From positions 1-25,150 of IMG/VR virus record IMGVR_UViG_3300033146_001954: 25,150 nucleotides of DNA; one strand, 5' to 3'. Positions 16,244-25,150 of this stretch are shown in pieces (position 1 is the stretch's first letter; every line of letters starts with the position of its first letter). The position numbers and the translations under genes were made by a program. The DNA is from a virus. Under the pieces are notes generated by a model. That model ran no database searches. It was not told the origin of the DNA and saw nothing but the letters and a program-made list of their open reading frames with translations.

Positions 16244-16882
16244 ATGACAAAATCTGATATTATTGCAAAAGCAGTTGCCCTTATCCAGGATGGTGCATTT
16301 GGTGAGGATGAAGTTGATGAACTGCTAACACAGGTTGTAGGTATGGTTGCTGCTCGAGTCCGTATACCTAGTACCAAACGAATTGGTGCACTGGATGTAG
16401 CGGCAGGTGAGACTAGTACTAACGTACTTACATCCATTGCTGGCTTTACATCTTCGTATATTTCTCACGCAAGGAATACTACGACGGGTAAGGACCTTCG
16501 CATATATCCAACTCTTGAGTTAATGTTTGAGGACTACGGCACGTTTGATGAAGCTGGAGATATCGAGGCTGTATGCTTTGAGGACTTTATGGTATGGACA
16601 CAGCATGTTGCTCCAGCTGACCAAACTGTCGCATTTGTCTACTACGCAACTCCCACTGTTCCATCTTCTGGTCATATTACCTGGGCACCGCTTGGCTTGC
16701 ACTATGACTTGTTTGTGCATGGCATTGCAGCGGTTGCCTTTGGTGAGATTGAGGATGGCCTGGAGGACAACAAAGTTAATACTGGGTATAACGCCGGTAA
16801 GTTCTTTGGTGCTATTAGTGAACTGCGTGTGCACTATAACCGCAGTCGCCAACACTTTGTATCAGGATACTGGAGCGTATGA
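16244..16882 (+). CDS. Head-tail adaptor, SU10-type
   Basis: A 212-residue protein starting at ATG 16244 with GGGAG at 16232-16236. The N-terminus is helical (SDIIAKAVALIQD, DEVDELLTQVVGMVAARVRI). A middle beta region follows (DFMVWTQHVAPADQTVAFVYYA). The C-terminal helical pair (LHYDLFVHGIAAVAFGEIE, then NAGKFFGAISELRVHYNRSR) matches the pattern of the phage adaptor family typified by the SU10 portal adaptor. These proteins dock on the portal ring and link it to the tail. Position after portal, capsid and decoration genes agrees. It overlaps the next gene by ATGA. Confidence 0.75.
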   Translation: MTKSDIIAKAVALIQDGAFGEDEVDELLTQVVGMVAARVRIPSTKRIGALDVAAGETSTNVLTSIAGFTSSYISHARNTTTGKDLRIYPTLELMFEDYGTFDEAGDIEAVCFEDFMVWTQHVAPADQTVAFVYYATPTVPSSGHITWAPLGLHYDLFVHGIAAVAFGEIEDGLEDNKVNTGYNAGKFFGAISELRVHYNRSRQHFVSGYWSV

Positions 16883-17778
16883 AAGAGATAGCTCTCATAA
16901 CTAAAACTCGCGGTATTAACAGTGCTATCGACCCTCGACAAATACCACTTACAGATGGTGGCTTCGAGAATATAGCAGCGGCTGTAAATGTTAATATAAC
17001 TGACGGGTTTAGAATTGTTCGTAGGTGCGGGTATGCTGCACAGCGGTCATGTGTAGCGCATAGTCTATTTGTGCATGATGGCTTAGGCTTTGGTGTTATT
17101 GACAACACACTTGTACGGATTCGTCCGAATCTTACTACCATTGCATTACGTACTGGAATGACTTCTGATAAAGTCCGGTATGTAGGTGTGGGTGATAAGG
17201 TATTCTACAGTAACACAGCTGTTAACGGTTTTATCCATGCAGACACAGACTATGCCTGGTTGCCAGGACAGTACGTTGGGCCAGATACAGTAAAGGAGTA
17301 CGTGTCACCACCAGTAGGTAAGCATCTCTGTTTGCACAGAGGAAGAGTTTATATTTCAGATAGAAGTGCTATCTGGTATACTGAACCAATGTATTACCTT
17401 GGGATAAATAAGGCAACAAACTTTATTCCTATTAGTTCAGATGTTAGGATGTTACTATCAGTAGGTACAGCATTATTCGTTGCTGATGAGCATAGTATTT
17501 ATGCACTCGTAGGCACAAATCCTGACGACTATACTGTGGTACGAGTTGCAGCTGACCGTGTTGTTGAAGATACTGCAGTTGTAGTACATAAGCCAGTAAT
17601 TTTAGGAAAACAGTTTGCTGGGCCAATCGGAATATTTACTGCACAAAATGCAATATATGCTGCTACCCCAGATGGCAGTATATTTGATATTACAGAAAAC
17701 CGCCTTCGTATGCCCTACGCAAATACTGGTAATGCATATGTTAAGGACGGAATATATACAGCTTTTGTCGATGCGTAA
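16879..17778 (+). CDS. Beta-propeller-like neck/tail hub protein
   Basis: A 299-residue protein with blade-like repeats of the form hydrophobic-strand, turn, S/N/A-D, strand. Examples are GFGVIDNTLVRIRPN, RVYISDRSAIWYTEP, ALFVADEHSIYALVG and NAIYAATPDGSIFDIT. Such propeller or stopper proteins follow the adaptor in podovirus-like phages (P22 gp10-like DNA stabilisation proteins are one analogue), but this one is shorter and sequence identity cannot be judged. The start overlaps the adaptor stop (ATGA). The end overlaps the next gene by 8 bases (ATGCGTAA), raising the possibility that the two form one functional unit. Confidence 0.6.
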   Translation: MKEIALITKTRGINSAIDPRQIPLTDGGFENIAAAVNVNITDGFRIVRRCGYAAQRSCVAHSLFVHDGLGFGVIDNTLVRIRPNLTTIALRTGMTSDKVRYVGVGDKVFYSNTAVNGFIHADTDYAWLPGQYVGPDTVKEYVSPPVGKHLCLHRGRVYISDRSAIWYTEPMYYLGINKATNFIPISSDVRMLLSVGTALFVADEHSIYALVGTNPDDYTVVRVAADRVVEDTAVVVHKPVILGKQFAGPIGIFTAQNAIYAATPDGSIFDITENRLRMPYANTGNAYVKDGIYTAFVDA

Positions 17779-19966: not shown

Positions 19967-20419
19967 ATGGGATTACGTCTTAGTACCGGACTGAGAAATG
20001 CAATTATGGGAAGTTCTGGTTTCAAAGGAGCTATGGATGGCGGTGTTCTTGATATTTTTTCAGGAACTATTCCGACCGATGCTGACCAGGCTGAAGGGTC
20101 TGGAACCAAACTACTTCGAATTACTGTAAATGGCGGAGCGTTTGCTTCGAATCCACTGCACTTTGCAGCCAGTGCTGTAGGTGGCAAGCTGTCAAAGAGT
20201 GATTCAGAAAGTTGGCAAGGTGATGGACTTGCGGATGGCACAGCAAGTTGGTTTCGTTTCTATGACTCCAATGATACGTCCGGTGCCAGTACGACAGCTG
20301 CTCGGTTTGACGGTACTGTCGGTACCAGTGGTGCTGACCTTATTCTGACAAGTACCAGCATTGTTAATGGAGCTACCACAACCATTGACGCTGCAGACTT
20401 CACGCTGCCTGCTTCGTAA
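19967..20419 (+). CDS. Conserved phage structural protein, hypothetical
   Basis: A 150-residue protein with AGGAGGAG directly before ATG 19967. Its sequence order (GLRLSTGLRNAIMGSSGF, GVLDIFSGTIPTDADQAEGSG, LLRITVNGG, GWxRFYDSND-like TASWFRFYDSNDTSGASTTA, ARFDGTVGTSGADLILTSTS, NGATTTIDAADFTLPAS) is one I recall from many tailed-phage genomes as a conserved hypothetical in the tail-fibre region. It appears to be a compact beta domain. The role is unknown; position at the head of the second adhesin cluster suggests a minor virion component. It is followed by a strong hairpin. Confidence 0.7.
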   Translation: MGLRLSTGLRNAIMGSSGFKGAMDGGVLDIFSGTIPTDADQAEGSGTKLLRITVNGGAFASNPLHFAASAVGGKLSKSDSESWQGDGLADGTASWFRFYDSNDTSGASTTAARFDGTVGTSGADLILTSTSIVNGATTTIDAADFTLPAS

Positions 20420-20428
20420 GATAACCTA

Positions 20429-20456
20429 AGGTAGTGGGGAGAAATCCCCACTACTT
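20429..20456 (+). terminator. Strong intergenic RNA hairpin, possible terminator or processing site
   Basis: GTAGTGGGG (20431-20439) pairs perfectly with CCCCACTAC (20446-20454) across the loop AGAAAT; one G-U and one A-U pair can extend it to 11 bp. Only a short TTAT follows, so it is not a textbook intrinsic terminator. It lies 10 bp after a stop codon and ends 14 bp before the next start codon, with the GGAGA ribosome binding site immediately outside. Partial termination or protection of mRNA ends are possible. Confidence 0.5.
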
Positions 20457-20469
20457 ATACGGAGAACCT

Positions 20470-22641
20470 ATGAGTGAAACACTGGTAAAACGCACACCAA
20501 CGCACGGATATTACTGCCAAGATAATTCACCTACTTCAGCAACTATGACAGAAGCTGCAGGTATTATAAACGGCACAAAAACTGATAATCCGGCTAGTAC
20601 GTACTGGACACAGTACTATCAGTTTGGTATTGACCTAGGGTCAGCTAAGGATATTAATAGGCTGCGTGTGTATTCAAGTGTATACGGCCAAGGTGATTTT
20701 AACTCAAGTTATGATAGCCTACGTGTATATAAGTCATCCGACAATACAAACTGGACGTCGGTAAAGTCATACGATGGTGACGACCTTACATTACACCAGG
20801 AGTCTGACCACTGCTGGTGGGATTTAGACTTTAGTACACTCAACACCAGGTACATTAAGGTGTACAGTGGTAGCGGGATAGCGTTTGGCGCAGGTGGTGC
20901 CTCAGCTATTTTGTCTGAATTGGAAGCGTACTATCGTACAGCGTCTGGGTCAGTAACATTATTTACAGACCCAAGTAAGATTGCTGCTGATATGGCACAC
21001 TTTCCAATGCCAGTAGACATTATGCAGTACTGTCCAGAAATCATAAGCGATTTAGGTGACGACGACAAGTTGAAGCTTAAAGTTATGGCTACTGGTAAGG
21101 CATTTGATGCAGACACAAAATTACTTATACGTTCTGATGAAGTAGATGGCAATGTTCACTTTTACGATGCCTCTCCGGGTAACTTGGATATTGGCCATAG
21201 TGGAAGTACAGTATACCATTCTGATACAAAAAAGAAATTTGGTAAAACAAGTATGTACTTTGGCGACAGCAGTAGCTATATGTCGTTTACTACTGACTCA
21301 ACGGAAGGTGTATTTACTGGTGAGTTTACAATCGACTTTTGGATAAACTTTAATAGTATAGTAGAGCAAACTATTATCGGCTCTACATCAAGTACTGGCT
21401 GGTATATTCAGTATACCGGTAGTGCGATACGCATGATAAGCCATTACGGTACAGTTGTATATCACGCCTGGACGCCAACAGCTGGAACATGGTATCATAT
21501 AGCGTACGTTAGAGATTCTAGTGATGACGTTAAGTTATATATTGACGGTGTACTAGTTGAGACACACAATTTTACTGATGACATTGGCAGCAGTGGAGCT
21601 ACGTTTGATACAAAAACTGCATCAGGTACAGCGTTTAATGGGTACATTGACGAGATGCGATGGAGTCATACAGCTAGGTGGACATCTGCATTTACTCCGC
21701 CAACTAGTATGTATGGGTTCACTACAGTCAGGGAATTGGAGTGTTATGTTGCTGTAGGTGCGTGGAATGGTTCTGACGAGGGAGTACTAACAGTAGGAAT
21801 TCCATGCCTATCTGCTAGTGACAGTTTACAGCTCGAAATATCATGGGATACAACCTGGGCAAAAAATACTGATTATGTTGGTTACAATGGAAACAGCACT
21901 GCAGCTAAGGTATTTGATAATAGGTTTATTTCATTTACGTACTTTGCACGTACCAGTGGTGGACTTAGAGATGAAACAGATGCTAGAGCCGGTACTCTGG
22001 TAAATATGTCAGCAGCTAATCAGGTTACTGGGCCACTCGGTATGGCACTAACATTTGATGGAACTGAGGAGTATGTAAGAAACTTATCATATATTGCTCA
22101 GGCAATGCAGCCGTCTACAGAATCAACATTTACTGTGCTACTTGCGTTTAAGGCAGCAGCTACAGGGTCTGGAACTAGCGATACCATATTTGCAATAGTT
22201 GGTTCTACTACACTGAATAATGTACGCATAGTAAATGGTACTAACATTGATGTCTATATAGGTGATGTTAGGACTATTGCTGGTACAAAAGCTATATCGT
22301 CTACCTTTCAGGTATTTACGTATACAGATTCTCCTGACGGCGGTGAGTTATTTTGCGATGGTGTGTCTGTGGGTACATCTACATCACATGCAACTTGGAA
22401 CAATACGTATAGCAATATTGCATCGTATGGTGCTCGTTACGATAATAGCTCACCGTCTGACTACGCTGCACAGACAACTGCTATCATGATTGTATCAAAA
22501 ACTGTCAGGAGTGATGACTGGATTAAAACAATGACAGCTGCAGTCCTTGACCAAATACTTGGATTTCCAATTAATCAGAGAATGTATCTTCGAACGAGAG
22601 CACAAATACCAAATTCTTTTAACATTCTAGGAGGGATTTAA
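20470..22641 (+). CDS. Tail adhesin with discoidin-like and two LamG-like domains
   Basis: A 723-residue protein. The start is ATG 20470 behind GGAGA (20461-20465); an in-frame GTG at 20434 would place the start inside a hairpin. Residues about 12-155 resemble an F5/8 type C (discoidin) galactose-binding domain (YYQFGIDLGSAKDINRLRVY, TRYIKVYSGSG). Residues about 255-415 are a LamG/concanavalin-like domain (MYFGDSSSYMSF, GEFTIDFWINF, TWYHIAYVRDSSDDVKLYIDG, GYIDEMRWSHTARW). Residues about 440-515 recall DUF2341, commonly found before LamG. A second LamG-like domain spans about 520-690 (ALTFDGTEEYVR, GGELFCDGVSVGT). Such modules bind surface glycans, so this is a probable host-recognition protein. 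Confidence 0.8.
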   Translation: MSETLVKRTPTHGYYCQDNSPTSATMTEAAGIINGTKTDNPASTYWTQYYQFGIDLGSAKDINRLRVYSSVYGQGDFNSSYDSLRVYKSSDNTNWTSVKSYDGDDLTLHQESDHCWWDLDFSTLNTRYIKVYSGSGIAFGAGGASAILSELEAYYRTASGSVTLFTDPSKIAADMAHFPMPVDIMQYCPEIISDLGDDDKLKLKVMATGKAFDADTKLLIRSDEVDGNVHFYDASPGNLDIGHSGSTVYHSDTKKKFGKTSMYFGDSSSYMSFTTDSTEGVFTGEFTIDFWINFNSIVEQTIIGSTSSTGWYIQYTGSAIRMISHYGTVVYHAWTPTAGTWYHIAYVRDSSDDVKLYIDGVLVETHNFTDDIGSSGATFDTKTASGTAFNGYIDEMRWSHTARWTSAFTPPTSMYGFTTVRELECYVAVGAWNGSDEGVLTVGIPCLSASDSLQLEISWDTTWAKNTDYVGYNGNSTAAKVFDNRFISFTYFARTSGGLRDETDARAGTLVNMSAANQVTGPLGMALTFDGTEEYVRNLSYIAQAMQPSTESTFTVLLAFKAAATGSGTSDTIFAIVGSTTLNNVRIVNGTNIDVYIGDVRTIAGTKAISSTFQVFTYTDSPDGGELFCDGVSVGTSTSHATWNNTYSNIASYGARYDNSSPSDYAAQTTAIMIVSKTVRSDDWIKTMTAAVLDQILGFPINQRMYLRTRAQIPNSFNILGGI

Positions 22642-22642
22642 T

Positions 22643-23089
22643 ATGGCTGGACTTATTTGTATTGCACAGACTGCTGAAGTTGCTCTGACAGCTGCTACTG
22701 CCAAAACAGTACTGCAACTGGTAGCCCCAACTAACCAGCGACTCAAACTGAAACGGTGGGGAGTATTTTTTGATGGTACGTCAGGTACGGCAGAACCTGT
22801 TCAGGTGCGTTTACTTCGACAAACCAATGCAGGTACCATGTCCTCACTTACACCCGTGAAGCAGGTTGCTGGAAGTGAAACAGTACAGACAACTGCGCAG
22901 CACACAGCAACCGCCGAGCCAACTGCTGGTGATGTTATTGACGTAGCTGAAGTGCATCCACAGTCTGGGTACGAAGTAATTATTCCATTTGATATGCCTG
23001 TAGAAGTTCCTGGTGGCGGAAGGATTGGTATTGAGTGTACTGCTCCTGCAACTGTTAATGTCCGTGCAAAGTTGGTATTTGAGGAATAA
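22643..23089 (+). CDS. Conserved phage structural protein, hypothetical
   Basis: A 148-residue protein with AGGAGGG at 22629-22635 before ATG 22643, overlapping the end region of the adhesin gene. It contains LQLVAPTNQRLKLKRWGVFF, then DGTSGTAEPVQVRLLRQTNAG, then YEVIIPFDMPVEVPGGGRIGIECTAPATVNVRA, a small beta-sandwich style that I recall in conserved hypothetical phage virion proteins. No enzyme motif is seen. Its codons end in G/C more often than those of the neighbours, perhaps reflecting higher expression. Role inferred as minor structural or fibre-tip protein. Confidence 0.7.
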   Translation: MAGLICIAQTAEVALTAATAKTVLQLVAPTNQRLKLKRWGVFFDGTSGTAEPVQVRLLRQTNAGTMSSLTPVKQVAGSETVQTTAQHTATAEPTAGDVIDVAEVHPQSGYEVIIPFDMPVEVPGGGRIGIECTAPATVNVRAKLVFEE

Positions 23090-23973
23090 TGTATACTGTC
23101 GTCAGACCACCTACACATCCAGTATCTAAGTTTCGACCTTGGCATACTACCTACGGCTTTACAAGCTTAAATAGTATTGCTGCGAGTTTGCCGGCAATTA
23201 CAGGAGCAGTTTCCGGTAGTCAAATTGCAAATAAGATTGAAAGTGATTTACCGGCAATTACTGGGGCTATGCACAGCGGTGGTACGCTTACTGCAAACTT
23301 ACCACTAATAACTTCGTATATTCATGAGTATATAATTTCAGGTGACATTGATAGTACGTTACCTACACTTACTGGGTATATTGAAGCACTGTGGACAGTT
23401 GGTAGTGTTCAGCGCCCACTCCCGGCAATTACTGGTAGTATGTCAAGTGGTGGACGTATTCCAGCTACTGTTCCAGCAATCACTGGAATATTAACAGGCC
23501 GTGTCGGAATTTCTGGTAGTCTTGTCCGTACAATTAACGGTATTACTGGTAAGATGTATGCTGGTGGCGTAGTAATTCAGCCGTTACCCGCAATTACATC
23601 TGATATTACTGGTAGTACTGGCAGCATAGGCACAGCGGATAAAAAACTTCCGGCAGTATATGCCAGACTATCTGGAACTGTAGAGTATCTTGGACAAGCT
23701 ACCCAGAGTATACCTAAGCTTACCGGAAAACTTACTGGTATTACTGGAATATCTGGGCAGCTTATTCGGCAACTGCCACATATAAAATCTAGTGTGTACG
23801 CACATACTGGAAACATTGGTAGTATTAGCAAAAATTTACCTGCAGTATCAATAATTAGTAGCGGAACTGTAGAAAACCTTGGTAACCTTGACGGAACAAT
23901 ACTTATATTTGGTGATATGCGCGGCAGTACTGACAGGTTTGCTAACTATATAATTCAATATCGGAGGCCATAG
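23089..23973 (+). CDS. LPAITG-repeat beta protein
   Basis: A 294-residue protein starting in a TAATG junction. After about 30 N-terminal residues it is built of some 13 repeats beginning with a motif like LPAITG, at residues 34, 54, 71, 91, 111, 128, 149, 166, 187, 208, 229, 250 and 271. The spacings are 17, 20 or 21 residues. The repeat body is Gly/Ser-rich (LPAITGSMSSGGRIPAT as a 17-mer). The regular short period with hydrophobic strands and glycine turns suggests a beta-solenoid or fibrous shaft. No known repeat family is recognised. It sits between virion-type genes; a fibre shaft role is inferred. Confidence 0.7.
   Translation: MYTVVRPPTHPVSKFRPWHTTYGFTSLNSIAASLPAITGAVSGSQIANKIESDLPAITGAMHSGGTLTANLPLITSYIHEYIISGDIDSTLPTLTGYIEALWTVGSVQRPLPAITGSMSSGGRIPATVPAITGILTGRVGISGSLVRTINGITGKMYAGGVVIQPLPAITSDITGSTGSIGTADKKLPAVYARLSGTVEYLGQATQSIPKLTGKLTGITGISGQLIRQLPHIKSSVYAHTGNIGSISKNLPAVSIISSGTVENLGNLDGTILIFGDMRGSTDRFANYIIQYRRP
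23188..23901 (+). repeat. Coding repeat array, 13 units of 17-21 codons
   Basis: The array is visible both in protein (L/V/I-P-A-I-T-G at each unit start) and in DNA, where CCGGCAATTAC recurs at several unit starts in the first half. Units in the second half (residues 128 onward) settle on 21/17 then 21-residue spacing and diverge in sequence (LPAVYARL, IPKLTGKL, LPHIKSSV). This suggests expansion by duplication followed by drift. Confidence 0.7.
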
Positions 23974-24440
23974 TGTTTAAACTTGGCATACGTATAAATC
24001 TTAATAACGGTGGAATGTCACAAGTAACTGGATGGGAGTTTAATTCAGTTGCTGATTTACATGATACACTTATCGCTGCGTCAGATACTGCACTGGCAAC
24101 ACTTGGTGCAGATGATGATAACGGAAATGATATAGACAGTTTTATCCTTGTGCCAACATCTAACTTAAATATTCCAAATCCCAAGCGTATTCGTAAAGGT
24201 TACTTGGAGTATGAGGTAGAGGGAAAACTTTCAATCACATGTAAATCTGGTAATTTACATTTTACTGAGGTTTTGGAAAATTCAGGTCGTCATGAAGGGG
24301 CTAAGGTTTTCAAGGGCAACAGAGGTGTATACGGAGTAAACTGGGAATTTGAAATCAGAAATGTTGATGGCGTGTACTTTGCCATTGACTACTTTGGAGT
24401 TTTACCTGTTGTACTTAATCGGCATAGGAGTCTACTGTGA
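23973..24440 (+). CDS. Hypothetical phage protein
   Basis: A 155-residue protein with GTG 23973 overlapping the previous TAG; CGGAGG at 23962-23967 supports the GTG. The sequence has mixed alpha/beta character (VADLHDTLIAASDTALATLG, RIRKGYLEYEVEGKLSITCK, GVYGVNWEFEIRNVDGVYFA). No family is recognised. It overlaps the next gene by GTGA and lies among fibre-type genes. It could be a tail component or a chaperone for its neighbours. Confidence 0.6.
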   Translation: MFKLGIRINLNNGGMSQVTGWEFNSVADLHDTLIAASDTALATLGADDDNGNDIDSFILVPTSNLNIPNPKRIRKGYLEYEVEGKLSITCKSGNLHFTEVLENSGRHEGAKVFKGNRGVYGVNWEFEIRNVDGVYFAIDYFGVLPVVLNRHRSLL

Positions 24441-25150
24441 GCGAAGTATATGAAGACAACATAGGATTTATAACTGAACGGTTCAATGAAGCACATACAT
24501 ATGCTGCAGCTGCATGGCAGGATTTTACGGAGTTTATGGATAGGATGCAGCATGACTTCACTGAATCAGATTTACCACTTGCTGATATTCAGTTTCCAAC
24601 TACGCCACCGATACTTAATACTGACATTATTGGCTTGCGTCCAGATATGCCAGATTTATCTCTTGACTCTACTACAGTTCCTGCAGCTCCTTGGCTGCCG
24701 TCAGTATCGCCTATTACACTACCAACAATTCCTGTATTTACTGTGCCGCCACCAGTAGTTACGTTACCTACAGTTCCGGATTCTACACTTCCAACTGACC
24801 CTGGCGAGGCACCAGCTACTGAAAATATTGAGATTCCAACAGCACCAGCATTTACACTGCCAGCTGCACCTACATTTTCAGATGTTATACTGCCAGAAAT
24901 GCCAACACTTGATAATATTCAGTTTGAGGGAATACTTCCTACAGCACTTCCTGACCCGCCAGCAAATATGTTTGCGTATAATGAAGCTGTTTACCAGTCA
25001 TTAATAAAAGATGACTTGGATAGAAAGATACTTACTGATATTGTTAGTGGTGGCACCGGACTTGACCCAGACGTCGAGGAAGCAATATACTTACGTGCGC
25101 GGGGTAGATTGAGTGAGGAACGTGAGCTTGCACATGATGAAACACTGAAC
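24437..25150 (+). CDS. Proline-rich tail protein, partial at right edge
   Basis: An open frame from GTG 24437 (in a GTGA junction, with TAGGAG 6 nt upstream) to the window end with no stop: 238 codons are seen. Residues about 1-45 are helical and acidic. Residues about 48-180 are a Pro-rich stretch with Pro every few residues, in the pattern hydrophobic-P-x-x-P (ITLPTIPVFTVPPPVVTLPT, then VPDSTLPTDPGEAP, IPTAPAFTLPAAP). From about 190 it becomes helical and charged (YNEAVYQSLIKDDLDRKILT, RARGRLSEERELAHDETLN). Large tail proteins with an extended Pro-rich linker followed by helical bundles are common. The exact class cannot be decided without the rest. Confidence 0.7.
   Translation, partial: MSEVYEDNIGFITERFNEAHTYAAAAWQDFTEFMDRMQHDFTESDLPLADIQFPTTPPILNTDIIGLRPDMPDLSLDSTTVPAAPWLPSVSPITLPTIPVFTVPPPVVTLPTVPDSTLPTDPGEAPATENIEIPTAPAFTLPAAPTFSDVILPEMPTLDNIQFEGILPTALPDPPANMFAYNEAVYQSLIKDDLDRKILTDIVSGGTGLDPDVEEAIYLRARGRLSEERELAHDETLN

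Follow-up and report, generated by a model that had tools for sequence, protein, structure and literature searches.

The window, that is the whole stretch of 25,150 bases of a virus record that was analysed, carries a podovirus-type module with all genes on the plus strand. The module contains a terminase, a portal protein (phrog_156), a major head protein (phrog_334), a nozzle or head-closure protein (phrog_8040) and a virion protein (phrog_3758). An SU10-adaptor-like protein was also present, with a match just under the Pfam cut-off. The features of the tail region are as follows.

16879..17778, plus strand: nozzle/head-closure protein of 299 aa (phrog_8040, Hc3), homologue of ORF008 of Pseudomonas phage KPP25
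17615-19942: 775-aa ORF between the nozzle and the phrog_3758 virion protein; its earliest-start version overlaps the nozzle gene
19967..20419, plus strand: 150-aa virion protein (phrog_3758), homologue of KPP25 ORF006
20434..22641, plus strand: 735-aa protein; it has a lectin-like Laminin_G_3 domain and, below threshold, a match to F5/8 type C (discoidin-like)
22643..23089, plus strand: 148-aa protein between the lectin-like and repeat genes, 82% identical in the related contig L002
23089..23973, plus strand: repeat protein of 294 aa, with 33 N-terminal residues, 12 clear LPxxT-type units, a degenerate 13th unit and a conserved C-terminus
23188..23898, plus strand: the 12 clear units, their starts cross-checked with a matrix from homologues
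23963..23967, plus strand: GGAGG, a Shine-Dalgarno-like site for the following ORF, inside the codons for Arg-Arg-Pro at the conserved C-terminus of the repeat protein
23973..24440, plus strand: 155-aa stand-alone C-terminal domain (C-domain), whose homologues in F116- and KPP25-like phages are the C-domains of fused proteins
24437..25150, plus strand: coil partner gene (phrog_10969), cut by the contig end; its family is homologous to KPP25 ORF003

The 775-aa ORF matched no Pfam or PHROG family at E < 0.01. The coil partner has a Pro-rich N-terminus followed by a long helical or coiled-coil-like part, as seen in its 636-aa versions in the related contigs L002 and L003. Weak matches to neurotoxin binding domains fall in the LamG region of the 735-aa protein, and they most likely reflect only the shared lectin fold.

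The clear units of the repeat protein are 17, 20 or 21 residues long. They start at nucleotides 23188, 23248, 23299, 23359, 23419, 23470, 23533, 23584, 23647, 23710, 23773 and 23836, corresponding to residues 34, 54, 71, 91, 111, 128, 149, 166, 187, 208, 229 and 250, and the degenerate unit begins at nucleotide 23899 (residue 271). The spacings are therefore 20, 17, 20, 20, 17, 21, 17, 21, 21, 21, 21 and 21. The motif [LIV]P.[ILV][TKSV] occurred 10 times; in 20,000 shuffles, it was present 0.37 times on average and never more than 5 times. A scoring matrix was built solely from the repeat units of the two homologues in L002 and L003. The nine best scores of this matrix in the window protein coincided with nine of the unit starts, and seven of the nine exceeded the 95% quantile of the best scores of the shuffles. 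The unit at residue 208 scored weakly, the units at 149 and 229 were outside the 16 best-scoring positions listed, and the degenerate unit appeared only as position 270. In the periodicity analysis, lags 63 and 21 were highest, followed by 24, 57 and 38. The hydrophobic moment scored alike at 100 and 160 degrees, which leaves helix and strand ambiguous. The repeat observation in this ORF is confirmed: the initial annotation had placed about 13 LPAITG-like units at 23188-23901, and the unit mapping agrees with that number and place, the unit starts running from nucleotide 23188 to 23899. The constant spacing of 21 in the second half was also seen (five times in succession). As for the alternation of 17 with 20-21 described for the first half, the lengths hold, but strict alternation does not, as two spacings of 20 stand next to each other.

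Two contigs, L002 and L003, were found via the downstream neighbour at 24437, and each carries a 305-aa repeat homologue at the corresponding place. The homologues are syntenic with the window protein and 32-33% identical to it, and the spacing series is identical in all three. A comparison of repeat number between relatives, which the initial annotation had proposed, showed one additional 17-residue unit at the N-terminus in L002 and the lack of the first unit in L003. The two contigs are siblings, with identities of 96% for the nozzle, 94% for the coil protein and 93% for a 1352-aa protein. In the repeat protein of the siblings, BLAST aligned nothing in residues 1-67, and the first six shared units (64 to 158) were only 25-50% identical. 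The later units were 90, 90, 52, 71, 95 and 96% identical, so that the rise of conservation from the N- to the C-terminus is not smooth. The dN/dS of the repeat ORF between the siblings was 0.54 (243 codons), which is mild constraint only. The gene upstream of the repeat gene has been exchanged between them: a LamG gene plus the 148-aa gene in L002 versus an unrelated gene for a 296-aa protein in L003. In L003, a different gene thus takes the place of the 735-aa lectin-like gene of the window, and no homologue of the 148-aa protein was found at the corresponding place. Because the N-terminus is variable, the C-terminus is nearly fixed and the lectin-type genes are exchanged, the C-terminal end would be the anchor and the N-terminal side would face exchangeable modules. 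Read from these alignments, an anchored stalk facing outward appears to be the best description of the orientation of the repeat protein.

Two separate observations were made at this place. The lectin-type gene appears exchangeable, being F5/8-like plus LamG in the window (20434-22641), LamG in L002 (L002:7292-8152) and an unrelated gene in L003 (L003:3132-4022). Residues 1-63 of the L003 repeat protein (L003:4019-4936) seem to hold a third kind of repeat (V-L-D-F with G-Y-x-x-P) ahead of the LP repeats.

The repeat ORF ends in a TAG that overlaps the GTG start (23973) of the 155-aa ORF, and the latter lies in the -1 frame. GGAGG is located five bases ahead of the GTG, and the arrangement is identical in the window, L002 and L003. 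The junction apparently fits translational coupling of two chains.

The distribution of the repeat was then searched. Neither Pfam nor NCBIfam gave a significant family for the 294-aa protein. No match was obtained by tblastn of the window protein and its L002 homologue in INPHARED, by a scan of viral contigs with the window protein, or by a search of genome contigs with profile A4. Profile scans of the viral contigs (profiles A1 and A4) returned only the L002 and L003 contigs. When the PDB was searched with a profile of only the repeat, the matches were at the level of chance, the best being ribosomal protein L1 (E 0.13). The 3416 distinct ORFs of 90 other loci were searched with an LP-type repeat profile made from the three window-type proteins. 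The profile matched L092 (E 6.6e-11), gp22 of mycobacteriophage Charlie (3.1e-8), L056 (2.6e-6), L017 (6.6e-6), gp39 of Caulobacter phage Seuss (1.2e-5), L039 (7.1e-4) and, weakly, KPP25 ORF005 (0.13), and the next match had an E value of 0.72. Five of these seven come from the corresponding place of a tail module, and it was the C-domain or other genes that had led to them. The Charlie and Seuss proteins are not independent discoveries, because they were fetched for their weak similarity to the L003 homologue. That homologue matches the minor tail protein family phrog_17035, to which Charlie gp22 belongs, at E 2.8e-5, and the window protein alone gave no match to this family. The repeats of the Charlie and Seuss proteins are of about 21 residues, like those of the window. 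On the other hand, Charlie gp22 ends in a Gly-rich stretch that is absent, by eye, from the 294-aa protein, and both phages are long-tailed, unlike the podovirus-type module of the window. In the initial annotation the repeat was not recognised as a named family, which holds for Pfam and NCBIfam; the protein appears to belong to a phage tail-protein family, however, and its L003 homologue links it to phrog_17035.

Some other candidates were put aside or gave little. A sortase-dependent LPXTG surface protein was rejected, as the motif is LPxxTG and repeated, and a hydrophobic stretch with a basic tail is missing by eye. L099 was considered as a repeat carrier, and a closer look found no repeat in it. 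HHTV-1 gp48 was a weak tblastn match. Among the papers listed by a literature search, none dealt with the KPP25 structure or the LP-type repeat.

The 155-aa ORF was the key to the family. A C-domain HMM was seeded with ten fused homologues, none of them from the window group, and it matched the 155-aa ORF at E 1.1e-18 in a search of the upstream ORFs of 65 loci and nine window-group sequences. Against the F116-type proteins alone, the profile-profile comparison of the window-type C-domain was weak (Prob 77, E 2e-5). The coil-family profile A2 gave 79 viral loci, from the best 80 of 101 relatives, and five bacterial loci. These 84 loci are not independent: the sibling contigs recur among them as L015 and L016, near-duplicates are included, and two of the five bacterial loci (L102 and L104) look like the proviruses L059 and L050 again. 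A C-domain ORF was found upstream of the coil gene in 78 of the 84 loci, directly next to it in 68 and at a greater distance in 10. In five of the six misses (L034, L050, L059, L102 and L104) the C-domain ORF is present and runs into the earliest start of the coil ORF, and only L085 has no C-domain ORF upstream of the coil gene. In 64 of the 70 distinct C-domain proteins, a region longer than 150 aa precedes the domain on the same polypeptide; the other six are stand-alone domains (L015, L016, L017, L039, L043 and L056). L092 carries the LP-type repeat (E 6.6e-11) and the C-domain (E 6.9e-57, L092 itself being in the HMM seed) on one ORF. In L017, L039 and L056, the LP-type repeat is found in the ORF that precedes the stand-alone C-domain ORF, and their junctions differ from that of the window. 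As a side observation, the fused gene of an F116-like provirus appears as two ORFs of 246 and 141 aa (L043:6716-7878), perhaps owing to a broken gene or a sequencing error.

Significant periodicity precedes the C-domain in 54 of the 64 distinct fused proteins, with best lags of 56 (17 proteins), 38 (12), 18 (10), 20 (10), 58 (3), 21 (1) and 23 (1); these counts are not independent, because many of the proteins are close relatives. Among the single steps in 22 F116-type proteins, 18 (24 times) and 20 (15 times) were the most frequent. The commonest best lag, found in 17 of the 54 significant F116-like fused proteins, corresponds to a super-period of three units (18+18+20). The fused proteins displayed mostly carry other repeats such as DSAxxSD, and the LP-type profile matches only L092 and, marginally, KPP25 ORF005 among them. 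A Pfam scan of 12 fused proteins found no domain, lectin or other, in 10. LamG occurs in two fused relatives (L022 and L028), and SPRY is located at the N-terminus in the split relative L017. The phrog_12240 proteins of F116- and H66-like phages (Hollowayvirus; 387 aa in H66) resemble the window in position and C-domain. Their units of 18 and 20 residues compare with 17 and 20-21 in the window, and lag 38 is raised in both. They differ in their DSAxxSD instead of LPxxTG chemistry and in being fused, and the H66 protein has no Pfam domain. The features of the phrog_12240 and phrog_26502 families, namely the C-domain, the preceding repeats and the position upstream of a phrog_10969-type coil gene, are all present in the window. 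The presence of repeat and C-domain on one polypeptide is not, as separate overlapping ORFs encode them in the window, L002 and L003. The window thus has a split version of a phage tail protein family that is known but has been described little.

Virion evidence comes from KPP25. Its ORF005 (phrog_26502) resembles the window in the C-domain, in the gene order (150-aa gene, this gene, coil gene) and in an LP-containing middle part. In ORF005 the LP-containing part covers residues of about 205-470, and the C-domain residues of about 461-616. It differs in being one polypeptide of 620 aa with a longer N-terminal part and much less regular repeats, and a 649-aa gene lies between ORF005 and the coil gene in KPP25. 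ORF005 is annotated as structural and is identical to PDB chain 26gp_Q; it is also present in 26la and 44nx, with three chains in the three entries, one per entry. The coil homologue ORF003 is found in 26la and 44nx, ORF006 in 44nx (two chains), ORF007 in 26la and 44nx (four chains over the two), and the nozzle ORF008 and the adaptor ORF014 in 26fb; ORF004 was not found in the PDB. The C-domain profile A6, which includes the 155-aa ORF, matched KPP25 ORF005 in the PDB at E 2.1e-30, and the 155-aa ORF alone matched it at E 0.0066. Six of the 14 window proteins matched at E <= 0.01 against the small database of 15 KPP25 proteins: the portal, the major head protein, a 136-aa protein (0.0023), the nozzle, the 150-aa protein and the 155-aa protein (0.0066). 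The other eight, including the repeat protein and the adaptor, had no match among the 15. The C-domain of L002 matched ORF005 (1.4e-8) and its coil protein matched ORF003 (6.4e-9). By analogy with KPP25, we infer that the window repeat protein would be present in virions. The product of the gene at 24437 is probably in the same assembly, because of the synteny and the shared deposition of ORF005 and ORF003 in 26la and 44nx; the hydrophobic-Pro motifs, for which co-assembly had originally been suggested, do not serve as the reason.

For an understanding of the fold, models were made with AlphaFold2. The window repeat protein, modelled from three sequences, reached a mean pLDDT of only 32, a level that speaks neither for nor against the beta-solenoid or triple-stranded shaft suggested initially. 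The repeats of L092 were modelled at a pLDDT of about 32-70 and partly helical, and its C-domain (residues 331-470) at about 74-94. The first five Foldseek matches of the C-domain model include SU10, Pan3, Pa223 and an ephrin receptor, with a best E value of 6e-4. The C-domain model superposed over about 155 residues on the C-terminal part of tail chains that are taken as members of the nozzle, tail tubular protein B and P22 gp10 family. The Z scores were 9.1 for A4, 8.7 for Pa223 and 8.0 for SU10 over 154-164 residues, and in all three the match covers the end of the chain towards the C-terminus. The nozzle-type chains overall gave Z 6.8-9.1, and unrelated folds (beta-sandwiches) reached 7.5 over about 87-105 residues. 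Matches in BFVD were named P22 Gp10 or tail tubular protein B. The matched SU10 chain is taken to be the nozzle from the residue numbers in PMC9509320, where the platform domain of the nozzle contacts the adaptor. The other matched tail chains are taken to be nozzles from their chain length, helped by the BFVD names. By hhalign, the C-domain showed no sequence relation to the nozzle of the same phages (Prob 0.4). With modest scores, the C-domain model looks similar to the C-terminal part of podovirus nozzle proteins. Nozzles are not known to carry such repeats.

Considering the C-domain family, the fusion in L092, the synteny and the KPP25 homologues, ORF 23089-23973 would be the repeat half of a two-gene podovirus tail protein that is one polypeptide in most relatives, and we assign this a probability of about 0.6. 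Rather than an isolated novel fibre, it would be one of the two parts of a tail protein whose family is widespread in phages, the other part being the 155-aa C-domain, which the initial annotation did not mention. We infer a contact between the 294-aa and 155-aa halves and a spacer role for the former. In the mechanism proposed, the 155-aa domain with its nozzle-like fold would dock on the tail, alongside the coiled-coil protein and small virion proteins. With its conserved C-terminal end the repeat protein would be held at the tail, and the rest of it would project outward as a long spacer. The variable N-terminus would then face the exchangeable lectin-type proteins (LamG, discoidin-like; LamG or SPRY is fused on in some relatives), and host-binding modules could be swapped without touching the tail core. 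The repeats probably form a variable outward stalk joining the tail to host-binding parts. An unannotated phage repeat protein can thereby be placed in a family and be given a partner as well as a domain for its anchoring, and the point of the podovirus tail is marked where the variable, presumably host-facing side would meet the conserved core. A repeat without a significant Pfam or NCBIfam match also links podoviruses to a Caulobacter phage and to mycobacteriophage minor tail proteins. Since the homologue KPP25 ORF005 is in the PDB, the fold and the orientation are directly checkable.

A wider reading is tentative, and we hold it as a possibility. The LPxxTG and DSAxxSD repeats may be variants on a common frame of mixed unit lengths, folding with three units per turn into an undescribed monomeric beta-prism or solenoid on a nozzle-derived anchor. 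Three units per turn are suggested by the three-unit super-period, which is 56 in the F116-type proteins, lag 57 being raised in the window protein. If this is true, the stalk and the lectin would be an exchangeable, splittable cassette, and the repeat would span short-tailed and long-tailed phages.

It was also considered that the repeat protein is a homotrimeric fibre shaft of its own, resembling a triple beta-spiral or triple-stranded beta-helix and independent of the 155-aa protein. Triple-stranded shafts are common in phages, and the triple beta-spiral shafts of adenovirus and reovirus are built from short beta-type units with variable loop length. The regular fixed-length units with Gly and conserved hydrophobic positions would suit such a shaft, as would the tail module context. 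We regard it as unlikely, as the repeat is fused to the C-domain in L092; the AlphaFold2 model of the window repeat protein (mean pLDDT 32) is uninformative here. The single chain of KPP25 ORF005 per entry, against two of ORF006 and four of ORF007 in two entries, does not favour a homotrimer, while imposed symmetry could hide one.

That the repeat protein itself is the receptor-binding tip, its variable N-terminal units binding host glycans, seems quite unlikely. The unalignable N-terminal residues and the divergence of the first six shared units between the siblings fit such a role, and the protein adjoins the exchanged lectin-type genes, but unit lengths and hydrophobic positions follow a constant pattern, as expected of a scaffold. 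In addition, the recognised domains (LamG, SPRY) are encoded by other ORFs or precede the repeats, and there is another candidate, the post-coil gene of the siblings, whose products of 731 and 803 aa share about 100 alignable N-terminal residues and diverge in the rest. A merely apparent split, caused by ribosomal frameshifting or a sequence error, is very improbable: the stop/start overlap in the -1 frame and the one-piece protein of most relatives would agree with it, but three contigs share this overlap and the GGAGG five bases ahead of the GTG, L017, L039 and L056 are split at other junctions, and no slippery heptamer was seen at the junction by eye.

The coil-adjacent gene was observed at several loci. 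It follows the coil gene in L002 (L002:11906-14101) and L003 (L003:7323-9734), and a related gene is located between the C-domain and the coil gene in L017 (L017:6785-7999), L039 (L039:6105-7964) and L056 (L056:5803-7995). By eye, its products have a similar start of about 100 residues and a divergent rest, with 40% identity over about 100 aa between L002 and L003. Judging from the sequences, it is likely a receptor-binding protein gene that shifts position.
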